Source of the DNA: Methanolinea sp.
GTDB lineage: Archaea > Halobacteriota > Methanomicrobia > Methanomicrobiales > Methanospirillaceae
NCBI GenBank assembly: GCA_030055515.1
Contig: JASFYI010000001.1
Location: 248,001 to 312,000 of the forward strand
Reading direction: 5' to 3'
DNA length: 64,000 nucleotides
Within the stretch, counting starts at the first letter, position 1; each line of letters starts with the position of its first letter. This document shows positions 46,139 to 49,420 of this stretch, one piece after another. Below the pieces are notes generated by a model that worked only from the letters and a program-made list of their open reading frames with translations, was not told the origin of the DNA and did not search any database. The translations under genes were made by a program, and so were the position numbers.

Positions 46139-46622
46139 CGCTGCATCAGCTCCCCAGAGGACGAGGGAGGAATCCGCGCGCTTGTTCCGGGGAACCCGGG
46201 AGATGTCCCCGTCCCGGGCGGTGGGTCTGCAGTTTCGTGCAGGGGCAGCAGCACGGGGAGGGTGGCCGGGAATTCATCCCGGATCTTCCCGCGATCCTGT
46301 CAACGGTCGATTCGCACTCCATTGTTCTCTCACCAGTAAGAATGAATTATTACGTGTAATAATGCATATTAATATGCATTATTGTATAAAAAGTTAGTCA
46401 CGGTGGGGGGGTGTTCGTGGCAGCGCGCGGCTGCCGCGGTTTCCCTTGCCGCCGTTCCATTTCCCGCGGCACCGCGCAGGGCACGATCGCCACCTGGAGA
46501 GCCCCGATCGAAAAAAAGTCCGCGCAATTCTCTCCCCGTGCACCCGGCGGGTGGGCACCGATCCCACTTTCACACCGCGTGCTCCCCACCCTTATGGGGG
46601 TGTGCGTGCGAGGGGAGGTGGC
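46139..46622. other. 484-bp non-coding region between the ECF and PolB2-like operons
   Basis: No convincing gene. The minus-strand side (46139-46335) is GC-rich and can form hairpins: CCCGGGA (46195-46201) with TCCCGGG (46212-46218), and CTGCA (46227-46231) with TGCAG (46238-46242). If transcription starts near 46335 this is a structured leader of about 200 nt for the ECF operon. The middle (46340-46395) is AT-rich with two overlapping palindromes. The right side (46400-46622) is GC-rich, ending in CTTATGGG about 27 bp before, and GGAGGTG just before, the next ATG. Confidence 0.6.
46346..46383. promoter_or_regulatory. Overlapping AT-rich palindromes, candidate operator
   Basis: Two overlapping dyads. 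ATTATTAC-GT-GTAATAAT spans 46346-46363; a perfect 26-bp palindrome spans 46358-46383 with centre between 46370 and 46371. They share the half-site AATAAT. A further ATTATTGTA continues to 46386, and GTATAAAAAG follows on the plus strand as a possible TATA. Such a nested dyad in GC-rich DNA is typical of a dimeric repressor site, probably regulating the ECF operon. The regulator is not known. Confidence 0.6.
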
Positions 46623-47153
46623 ATGGAGCTTGCGCTGCACCCCTCGGTGACCCTGCGGAGCGGGACCTTCTCGGCGGTCGTCGCGCCCGAGGAGGTGATC
46701 CTCGCCGGCCTGAACGGCAACCCGGTCCTCTCGCGCTTCCTCTTCCTCTTCGTGAGCGGGAACTACTCGCGCCTCCTCTCGGGGATGGACAGGAGGGCGG
46801 TCAGCATCGAGGTGAGGCGCGCGTTCACCGCGTTCCAGCTCCTCCAGATCCTGCGGGAGTCGTACCACACGGTCGTCTTCGTGGAGCACGATCCCACCCT
46901 GTACGAGGATGCCGGCGGGGACCTCGCGTACCAGGTGGGAGAGGATCTCCGGCAGCTCGGACAGGGGGCGCTCGTCGTCCTGTACACCCCGTTCCCCGAT
47001 CCCGCATTCGAGACGATGGCAGGGCTCGCCGACCGCGTCTTCTACCTCGCGAGTCCCACGGCAGGATCGCCCGCTCCGCGCGCGAGGGGACGGGGGAAGG
47101 TCAGGTTCCCGGGCGGACTCCCGCGCGGGCAGCAGACGCTGGAGGGGGTGTGA
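46623..47153 (+). CDS. Unknown protein, possible degenerate RecA-fold partner of the PolB2-like protein
   Basis: 176 residues. The N-terminal part is unrecognised. The central stretch has two hydrophobic strands ending in acidic or polar residues, YHTVVFVEHDPTLYED and GALVVLYTPFPDPAFE, then LADRVFYLAS, in an order like Walker B and later strands of RecA/RadA ATPases. No Walker A (GxxGxGK[ST]) is present, so it would not bind ATP normally. The C-terminus is basic and Gly-rich. It is first of three tightly packed genes ending in the PolB2-like gene, 1 bp before the second. The RecA-fold suggestion is inference. Confidence 0.6.
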   Translation: MELALHPSVTLRSGTFSAVVAPEEVILAGLNGNPVLSRFLFLFVSGNYSRLLSGMDRRAVSIEVRRAFTAFQLLQILRESYHTVVFVEHDPTLYEDAGGDLAYQVGEDLRQLGQGALVVLYTPFPDPAFETMAGLADRVFYLASPTAGSPAPRARGRGKVRFPGGLPRGQQTLEGV

Positions 47154-47154
47154 G

Positions 47155-47397
47155 ATGGGGAGGAGCTTTGCGAGCGTCCGGCAGGGAGTGACGGTGCTCA
47201 CGGACCGGTGGGAGAGGACCGCGCGCACCCTTCCCGGCCGCGACAGGGAGTGCGCCCTGCGCGCTGTCCGGATGGCGAGGGTACACGCGAGCGAGTGTTT
47301 CTACGCGTTCGACGACCCCCTCGAGGCCGCGATCTTCTCCTTCCTCGTCGAGCTCGGGAGGAGCGGGGAGGGGGGGAGGTGCCGTGTGGATCCTTGA
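47155..47397 (+). CDS. Small helical protein of unknown function in the PolB2-like operon
   Basis: 80 residues, MGRSFASVRQGVTVLTDRWE, Arg-rich and predicted helical, with no recognised motif. It lies 1 bp after the preceding gene and overlaps the polymerase-like gene by 14 nt, so it is part of the same translational unit. It may be an accessory factor of that protein. Confidence 0.6.
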   Translation: MGRSFASVRQGVTVLTDRWERTARTLPGRDRECALRAVRMARVHASECFYAFDDPLEAAIFSFLVELGRSGEGGRCRVDP

Positions 47398-49420
47398 CTC
47401 GTGCACCCGCGGCGGGATGGTCGAGTTCTGGGAGAAGGGGCGTGGAGGCAGGCACCTCGTCCAGCCCGCGCCCCCCTCCTTCCTCCTCCGCCTCCCCGAT
47501 TCCCACTGGTTCTGCGACCTCCTCGCCGACCTCGAGAGCCGGTACCGCGTGGAGGAGTGCGAGATCCGGACGATACGCGGGGTTTTCCCGGGGTACCGCG
47601 TCATGGCGGGGAAGGACGTGGCGGCCCGGATCGAGGAACAGACGCACTACGCTGCAGAGATCTACGATGCCGACGTCCGCCCCGACCTCCTCCTCATGGC
47701 AGAGGCAGGCATCTCCCCCTGCGGCGGCGAGGGGGAGTCGCGGTTCTCTCCCGATATCTCCCCCGATCTCTCGACCGTGGAGATATCGGCTGATGGAAAC
47801 CCGTTCCGCCGCGACACGCTCCCGCCCCTCGAGGTCACCGTCGACGGGAGGCGGGAGAGGCTCGGCGGGGACGAGGGGACGATTCTCTCGGACCTCTCGG
47901 GGATCCTCTCGTCCGCCGACCCGGACGTCGTCCTCTTCCCCCACGCCGACCTCTGGGTGCCGAGGATGGTCGCGCGGGCCCGTTCCCTCGGGATCGATAC
48001 CGCCCTCTCCCGCTCCGGGAAGTTCCGCAGGCTGCCGGGCAAGTCGTACTGGAGCTACGGGAGGACGGAGTTCCGCGCGGGGGCCCTGATCCCCGACGGC
48101 CGGCTGCTCGTGGACACCGCGGGGAGCTTCCACTACAGGGAGGGGGGCCTTGCCGGCATCCTCCTCGGGTCGCGGCTCTCATGTCTCCCCCCCAACCTCG
48201 TCGCGCGCTTCTCGCCGGGGACGCTCATCTCCTCCTACGAGGTGTACGAGGCGAAGAGGAGGGGGATCGCGGTCCCGTGGAGGAAGGCGGACGCAGAGTG
48301 CGCGCGGCGTCTCCCGGCGCTCCGCGCGGCAGACCGAGGAGGGATGATCTTCCAGCCTGTCCCCGGGATCTACCCCCTCGTCCACGGGATTGATTTCACC
48401 TCGCTGTACCCCTCCCTCATCGTGAGGGACAACCTCTCCCCCGAGACCATTGATACCCCGGGGAAGAAGGGTTTCCTCCCCGAGGTGCTGGAACCCCTCC
48501 TCTCCCTCCGCCGCAGGACGAAGGAGCTGAAGGCGGCCGACCCGGGGTACGCGGGCCACGATGCCGTGCTCAAGTGGATGCTCGTCACGTGCTTCGGGTA
48601 CACCGGTTACCGGAACGCGAAGTTCGGGCAGATCGAGGTCCACGAGGCGATCACGGCGGCGGCGAGGGAGGTCCTTTTGCAAGCGCGGGACATCGCGGAA
48701 GGGATGGGATTCTCGGTCCTCCACGGGATCGTGGACTGCCTCTGGGTGAGGGGGGGTGACATCGGCGCGCTCCGGGAGCGCATCGAGCGCGAGACCCGGC
48801 TCCACGCCGTCACGGACACGTACGACTGGATCGTCTTCCTCCCCATGGCGGACGGGTCCGGCGCGTACAACAGGTACTACGGGAGGCTCGGGGACGGGAG
48901 GATGAAGGCACGGGGGATCGCGGCCCGGCGGGGAGACATGCCGCCCTACGTGAGGAGGGTGCAGCACCGGATGCTGGAGGTACTCGGGGGAGCCGCGACC
49001 ATTCCCGGTGTCGCGGCGCTGCGGGAGACCCTCCGCGCACTCTACAGGGAGGCCGCGGACGCCCTCCCCTCTGCCCACCCGTCCGAGATGGCCGTCACCC
49101 GGCGGATAAGTACCCTCAGGTACCGCCGCGCGTGCGCGGAGGCCTCGGCCGTCGAGGCCTGCCGGGCAGAGGGCATCGATCTCTCCCCCGGGATGGAGGT
49201 GCGCTTCGTGGTGAGGGATGCCCGCACGTGGGAAGTGGACCTCGACTGGAAGGCCGCGCGGTTCGACGTGGGGTACTACCGGGGACTCCTCGCGAAGGCG
49301 TGGGAGGAGGTCGTCTTCGCAGTGGACGAGGCAGGGAAGCACGCGCGCGGGGAAGCGCGGGGTGCGGGTGCACCCGCGGGGAGCGCGCCGGCGACCTCTG
49401 CCCCGGAGACCCGGGCGTAG
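47384..49420 (+). CDS. Inactivated-type B-family DNA polymerase homologue (PolB2-like)
   Basis: 678 residues. Polymerase motif A is intact (DFTSLYPS, 337-344). Motif B is altered: [13 protein letters not shown] (397-409) lacks the Asn-Ser of the usual KxxxNSxYG. Motif C reads HGIVDC (447-452) where active enzymes have YGDTDS, so the first catalytic Asp is Ile449 while Asp451 remains. The exonuclease motif I region reads LSTVEIS (129-135) instead of a DIE-type motif. Downstream, [18 protein letters not shown] matches the KKRY/RGI region. The family of inactivated archaeal PolB homologues is known; some crenarchaeal members are linked to DNA damage tolerance. It starts with GTG overlapping the preceding gene. 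Confidence 0.85.

Follow-up and report, generated by a model that had tools for sequence, protein, structure and literature searches.

The genome of a Methanolinea species (1.76 Mb, 99% complete) carries three tightly packed plus-strand genes around a B-family DNA polymerase with altered active-site motifs, and this raises the question of what the three products do together and when they are made. An initial annotation had read them as an inactivated polymerase with two small partner proteins, a reading that we followed up within a window of 64,000 nucleotides (the whole stretch of DNA analyzed, positions 248001-312000 of contig 1). Our analysis indicates that the genes very probably form a PolB2 mutasome operon encoding a damage-induced lesion-bypass complex. 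Re-derivation of the open reading frames across 46623-49420 returned the coordinates first given, including a 14-nt overlap between the second and third genes; the second gene begins 1 nt after the stop codon of the first.

46623..47153, + strand: iRadA, 176 aa, ATG start; inactive RadA/RecA-fold subunit without Walker A
47155..47397, + strand: PPB2 (arCOG07300-type), 80 aa, ATG start; helical partner with an MGRS...R9 N-terminal arm
47384..49420, + strand: PolB2, 678 aa, GTG start; B-family extender/translesion-type polymerase with a degenerate exonuclease domain

The cassette belongs to a known system

An operon of polB2, arCOG07300 and an inactivated radA was described in 2014 (Makarova 2014, PMC4104785), and its product was modelled in 2025 as a heteropentamer with a PPB2 trimer and compared explicitly with the Pol V mutasome (Timinskas 2025, PMC11791011). 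The initial view that such an arrangement is little described is thus out of date, and since both operon and complex have been published, the Methanolinea cassette is a further member of a known system. By family match, fold, the MGRS...R9 arm and gene order, its three genes are the published iRadA-PPB2-PolB2 operon. The order and the protein lengths are those of the published mutasome (arCOG07763/04294/08101, arCOG07300 and PolB2), and the two also share the MGR(S/T) arm of PPB2 with R3 and R9, the lost first aspartate of motif C, a RecA fold without Walker A and possibly a clamp-type motif at the C-terminus of iRadA; a clamp-binding motif, in iRadA or at the PolB2 C-terminus, is an optional feature of the family. 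They differ in that the Methanolinea arm reads MGRS for MGRT and the iRadA tail, QQTLEGV, has no aromatic pair. Furthermore, the Orc1-type gene is not adjacent to the operon in Methanolinea, yet carries the same promoter box elsewhere in the genome, and some relatives have no PPB2 beside PolB2.

A survey of related genomes, in which iRadA homologues were found in 47 of 61, bore out the expectation that both small genes accompany PolB2 in relatives. iRadA adjoins PolB2 in 36 loci, on the same strand in every case, although this 36/36 adjacency comes partly from selection because the loci were fetched through their iRadA match; an independent search with PolB2 led to the same places for most genomes. 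PPB2 lies between the two genes in 28 of the 36 loci, one of the iRadA-PolB2 loci has a further PPB2 upstream, and no recognisable PPB2 was found within the fetched stretch in the other eight (L087, L092-L096, L098 and L099), so that PPB2 is not universal. One genome has PPB2 and PolB2 without iRadA alongside. The Methanolinea genome also encodes a separate ordinary PolB (E 2e-46, in a frame of 980 codons) and an ordinary RadA (E 8e-150).

The altered polymerase motifs are family-wide

A match to the NCBIfam type-B polymerase equivalog NF004416 (E 8.3e-263) covers almost the entire polymerase, which also matches PF00136 (E 1e-12) and whose named close relatives are from Methanolinea and Methanoregulaceae archaea. 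Alignment with 20 relatives confirmed the motifs as first read: motif A is preserved, motif B has diverged and motif C is spelled HGIVDC. In motif A (DFTSLYPS), residues D337, F338, S340, Y342 and P343 are invariant or nearly so, as are H447 and D451 in motif C, where the first aspartate of YGDTDS is replaced in 20/20 relatives. Motif B is altered throughout the family, with K397 invariant or nearly so and a signature ending in [KR]NA[KR]FG. Ahead of motif A there is a D(K/R)-type motif, with D317 present in 16/20 and R318 in 18/20 relatives, of the kind described for PolB2 (PMC11791011). Judged by this alignment, the substitutions are family-wide features under strong conservation and reflect no local decay.

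Sulfolobus, in which an ANTTTC-type element has been published for UV-inducible promoters, has a damage-inducible extender polymerase of the same family, Dpo2, that also lacks the first aspartate of motif C. It nevertheless incorporates nucleotides robustly, has no exonuclease activity and, as a purified enzyme, extends mispaired ends efficiently (PMC8764526). The description of PolB2 as inactivated is thus not supported, and because Dpo2 is a robust extender polymerase without the same aspartate, it is probably wrong for the methanogen protein too; in this comparison Dpo2 has a measured activity, whereas the methanogen PolB2 is known here from its sequence.

The two small subunits

Pfam and NCBIfam scans of iRadA and PPB2 gave no usable family, and the DUF982 and FANCA_interact matches of the small proteins were below the cut-off and were taken as chance. 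The 176-residue protein had been suggested to be a RecA-type core without Walker A, and structure prediction proved this right: an AlphaFold model built with 35 homologues (mean pLDDT 85.4) matched FlaH, RecA, Rad51 and KaiC in a Foldseek search of the PDB (E 1e-5 to 1e-3, probability 1.00), and Walker A (GxxxxGK[ST]) is absent from the sequence. A profile comparison of iRadA with RadA gave nothing (0.2%), so that the homology of iRadA to RadA rests on the fold, and a comparison of the iRadA profile with the sequences of solved structures gave chance matches only. The most diverged inactive RadA proteins have been reported to be linkable to RadA by very sensitive methods only (PMC4104785). At the C-terminus, Q170 and L173 are nearly invariant in the alignment, and the tails of relatives read QTTLEGF, QITLEGFF or QKTLEGLW, the aromatic pair being present in some of them and not in Methanolinea. 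The tail appears to resemble the PCNA-binding motifs that have been described in iRadA proteins (PMC11791011), except that their aromatic pair is missing.

PPB2 begins with MGRSFASVR, and the MGRS, R3, R9 and a FYAFDDPLEAA core are conserved in relatives. The PPB2 family is characterized by a conserved N-terminal MGRT arm and arginines at positions 3 and 9 (PMC11791011), features that the Methanolinea protein has save for the conservative change of T to S. A second, standalone PPB2 copy in the same genome (E 3e-12; L121:1570-1821, G000 contig 3, ~164.1 kb) has no MGRS arm and is preceded by its own damage box. It is reminiscent of the published PPB2 duplicates, only one of which keeps the arm (PMC11791011).

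A promoter box shared with DNA repair genes

Upstream of 46623, and hence outside the segment originally delimited, the operon is preceded by two promoter elements.

46565..46578, + strand: promoter box CACTTTCACACCGC, a putative ANTTTC-type damage-response element, upstream of iRadA
46592..46595, + strand: TATA-like TTAT, 27-30 nt past the start of the box and ~30 nt before the ATG

The hexanucleotide core of the box, ACTTTC, lies at 46566-46571, upstream of the TATA-like element. When the upstream DNA was aligned, the core YACTTTCR was found to start 55-61 nt before the iRadA ATG in 37/40 loci, compared with a chance level of 1.0% of such windows under a first-order Markov null and 1.2% of real 130-nt windows from the same loci. 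In the 37 aligned promoters, the TTAT is conserved position by position (T.76 T.78 A.73 T.81). Since it lies at +27 to +30 of the box, the transcription start site is predicted near the ATG, and the operon mRNA would be leaderless or have a short leader. Farther upstream, a 26-bp perfect palindrome (AATAATGCATATTAATATGCATTATT, 46358-46383) separates the PolB2 operon from divergent genes for an ECF-type transporter and is possibly an operator. It was set aside as the operator of this operon, since among the compared loci it occurs only in this genome and it adjoins the divergent transporter gene.

Genome-wide scans, carried out with patterns and not with a weight matrix, found the 14-mer CACTTTCRCNCCGC at 157 exact sites in 61 order-level genomes, compared with 3 for the backwards pattern; the sites, ~0-9 per genome, include genomes without PolB2. 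The core precedes radA in 29/29 relatives, mostly ~73 nt ahead of the ATG, and was found before the universal NF001624 Orc1 paralogue in 0/29, the relatives in both counts being non-independent but drawn from several families. In the Methanolinea genome itself, boxes with at most one mismatch lie at promoter distance from the genes for RadA, an Orc1/Cdc6-type ATPase and the Nre repair protein, as well as before an RNase H-like protein, the standalone PPB2 and a 143-aa protein of unknown function; the remaining one-mismatch matches, which have no clear target, probably arose by chance (control 6 of 14).

The genes that follow the sites retrieved from relatives, which were picked by the 14-mer alone and with those of the Methanolinea genome included, were grouped by BLAST linkage. 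They most often encode a 139-aa protein of unknown function (21), in the largest cluster, which may contain a few loosely linked members, followed by RadA (10), Orc1/Cdc6 (9), RNase H_2 (9) and a ~51-aa protein (9). RPA (6), PPB2 (6), a repair-type radical SAM protein (4), Nre (4) and Mre11 (3) come next, and UvrA (2), the RFC small subunit (2, at +125 nt) and DinB (1) are rarer. The box also precedes Methanothrix PolB2 operons, and in distant genomes of the phylum it stands before RPA, Hef, Top6B and a Hel308-like helicase, several of the sites there being intracoding or without a clear target.

Proposed mechanism and alternative explanations

By analogy with the published homologues, DNA damage would turn the promoter on through the CACTTTCRC box. 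The products would be PolB2, an enzyme predicted to lack proofreading, iRadA, with a RadA fold and no ATP-binding Walker A, and the small helical protein PPB2, whose MGRS arm would enter the cleft between PolB2 and iRadA as in the modelled complex. Acting as one complex, the three proteins would extend distorted or mispaired primer ends past lesions, with a catalytic activity like that of Dpo2, and iRadA might tether them to PCNA through its QxxL tail. The comparison with mutagenic cassettes that use RecA-like accessory factors, put forward in the initial annotation, has been published for PolB2 and Pol V (PMC11791011). The Escherichia coli Pol V mutasome (UmuD'2C-RecA) and the bacterial ImuA/ImuB/DnaE2 cassettes likewise combine a polymerase, a RecA-fold accessory and a small subunit under a damage-linked promoter. 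However, they are built on Y- or C-family polymerases and are not homologous as systems; the Methanolinea polymerase is B-family (PF00136, NF004416) and neither a Y-family enzyme (ImuB/UmuC) nor DnaE2, and its accessory has no Walker A. The likeness to the ImuA and Pol V systems would thus be an analogy of function only.

An older alternative, put forward in 2014, is that PolB2 is catalytically dead and that the trio acts at stalled forks as a complex with a structural or regulatory role (PMC4104785). The replaced aspartate of motif C and the altered motif B, both found in 20/20 aligned PolB2 proteins, speak for this. Against it, D451, D337 of motif A, K397 and many core residues are invariant in the alignment, which argues that selection on the active site persists, and Dpo2 is robustly active with the same kind of substitution (PMC8764526); we therefore regard a dead polymerase as unlikely. 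The operon could also be a three-gene remnant or a selfish or mobile cassette rather than a housekeeping repair operon, given its patchy presence, with several order-level genomes having no PolB2, and the additional copies of iRadA and PPB2 found dispersed in some genomes. Its intact frames, strong sequence conservation, conserved order and a promoter box in common with radA make this the least probable of the readings weighed here, and no mobile genes were recognised beside the operon.

The box, for its part, might be a BRE-like core-promoter element in general use in these methanogens and carry no information on DNA damage, as its position directly upstream of the TATA-like element at a fixed distance would allow. 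A general element is difficult to reconcile with the few exact sites per genome, the enrichment at repair genes and the contrast between radA and the universal Orc1 gene. Nor does it fit well with the findings in Halobacterium (PMC2556686) and Sulfolobus (PMC5817253), where this core has been tied to UV. This explanation is largely refuted and, in our judgement, very improbable. Damage-induced lesion bypass remains the preferred reading. The cassette is a clear methanogen example of the PolB2 mutasome, through which archaea carry out mutagenic lesion bypass, and the promoter box makes the idea of a damage response directly testable.

Box relatives in other archaea and a candidate regulator

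Halobacterium genes that are induced by UV-B, among them radA1 and top6B, have the motif TTTCACTTTCA in common ahead of TATA (Boubriak 2008, PMC2556686). The same study pointed it out at radA in other haloarchaea and in Methanospirillum hungatei, so the presence of the box at haloarchaeal radA is already known. UV-inducible promoters of Sulfolobus need an ACTTTC or ATTTTC element upstream of BRE/TATA for their activity (PMC5817253), and the ANTTTC element is bound by Orc1-2 (PMC9738581). The Halobacterium motif and the methanogen box have the core CACTTTCA upstream of TATA in common, as well as radA and Top6B as targets, and the methanogen box contains the Sulfolobus ANTTTC element in the ACTTTC form seen at upsE and upsA. 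Unlike the elements of Halobacterium and Sulfolobus, it has a GC-rich 3' extension, CNCCGC, and a wider list of repair genes. The spacing between box and TATA is ~10 nt, about one helical turn, longer in the methanogen than in Sulfolobus, which is compatible with a shared mechanism without proving one.

Taken together, these observations raise the possibility, to which we give slightly less than an even chance, of an SOS-like damage regulon in Halobacteriota including methanogens, marked by YACTTTCRC(NCCGC) just upstream of TATA and written in the same code as the Sulfolobus ANTTTC element that Orc1-2 reads. Its members would be RadA, RPA, the PolB2 mutasome, DinB, UvrA, Mre11, Nre, Hef, Top6B, standalone iRadA and PPB2 paralogues, an Orc1/Cdc6 paralogue and the ~139-aa protein of unknown function. 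A 2017 review held that an SOS response is thought to be absent from halophilic archaea (PMC5626843); a box common to genes of recombination, single-strand binding, excision and translesion synthesis speaks against such an absence. If such a regulon exists, an Orc1/Cdc6-controlled damage response would be ancestral to, or widely shared among, archaea. The box ties together three bodies of work: that on the UV-B motif of Halobacterium (2008), that on Orc1-2 and the damage element of Sulfolobus (2017-2022) and that on the PolB2 operon. In the literature searched, we found neither this link nor a report of the box at the PolB2 operon, its reach across repair genes or its tie to the Sulfolobus element, although most subscription papers were outside the scope of the search, which makes this weak evidence.

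Among possible regulators of the box, the leading candidate is an Orc1/Cdc6 paralogue, and regulation by a boxed paralogue would mirror the autoregulation of Orc1-2. We did not adopt the boxed paralogue as a universal regulator because it is missing in several genomes that have the box; the universal paralogue is present almost everywhere and is unboxed. The two kinds, neither of them initiator-like, are distinct: the universal, unboxed proteins (L360-L389) show 76% mutual identity, whereas the boxed paralogues (L111:276-1457) are variable and faster-evolving, with 43% identity among themselves and ~42% to the universal kind.

Some of the less familiar genes behind the box also merit description. 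The ~139-aa family, the commonest of them, is represented at L109:1026-1454 (G000 contig 1, ~476.8 kb) and by 17 relatives in the alignment; its AlphaFold model is beta-rich and confident (pLDDT 84), and Foldseek gave no PDB match. The conserved ~51-aa proteins (MERSEFTTFASLAERAARYPTVVRRSQM...) begin 56-57 nt after the box at L146, L150, L156, L159, L168, L174, L180 and L181. Finally, the box is found at the UvrA genes of two genomes (L185 and L187), a promoter arrangement that suggests damage control of excision repair in methanogens.
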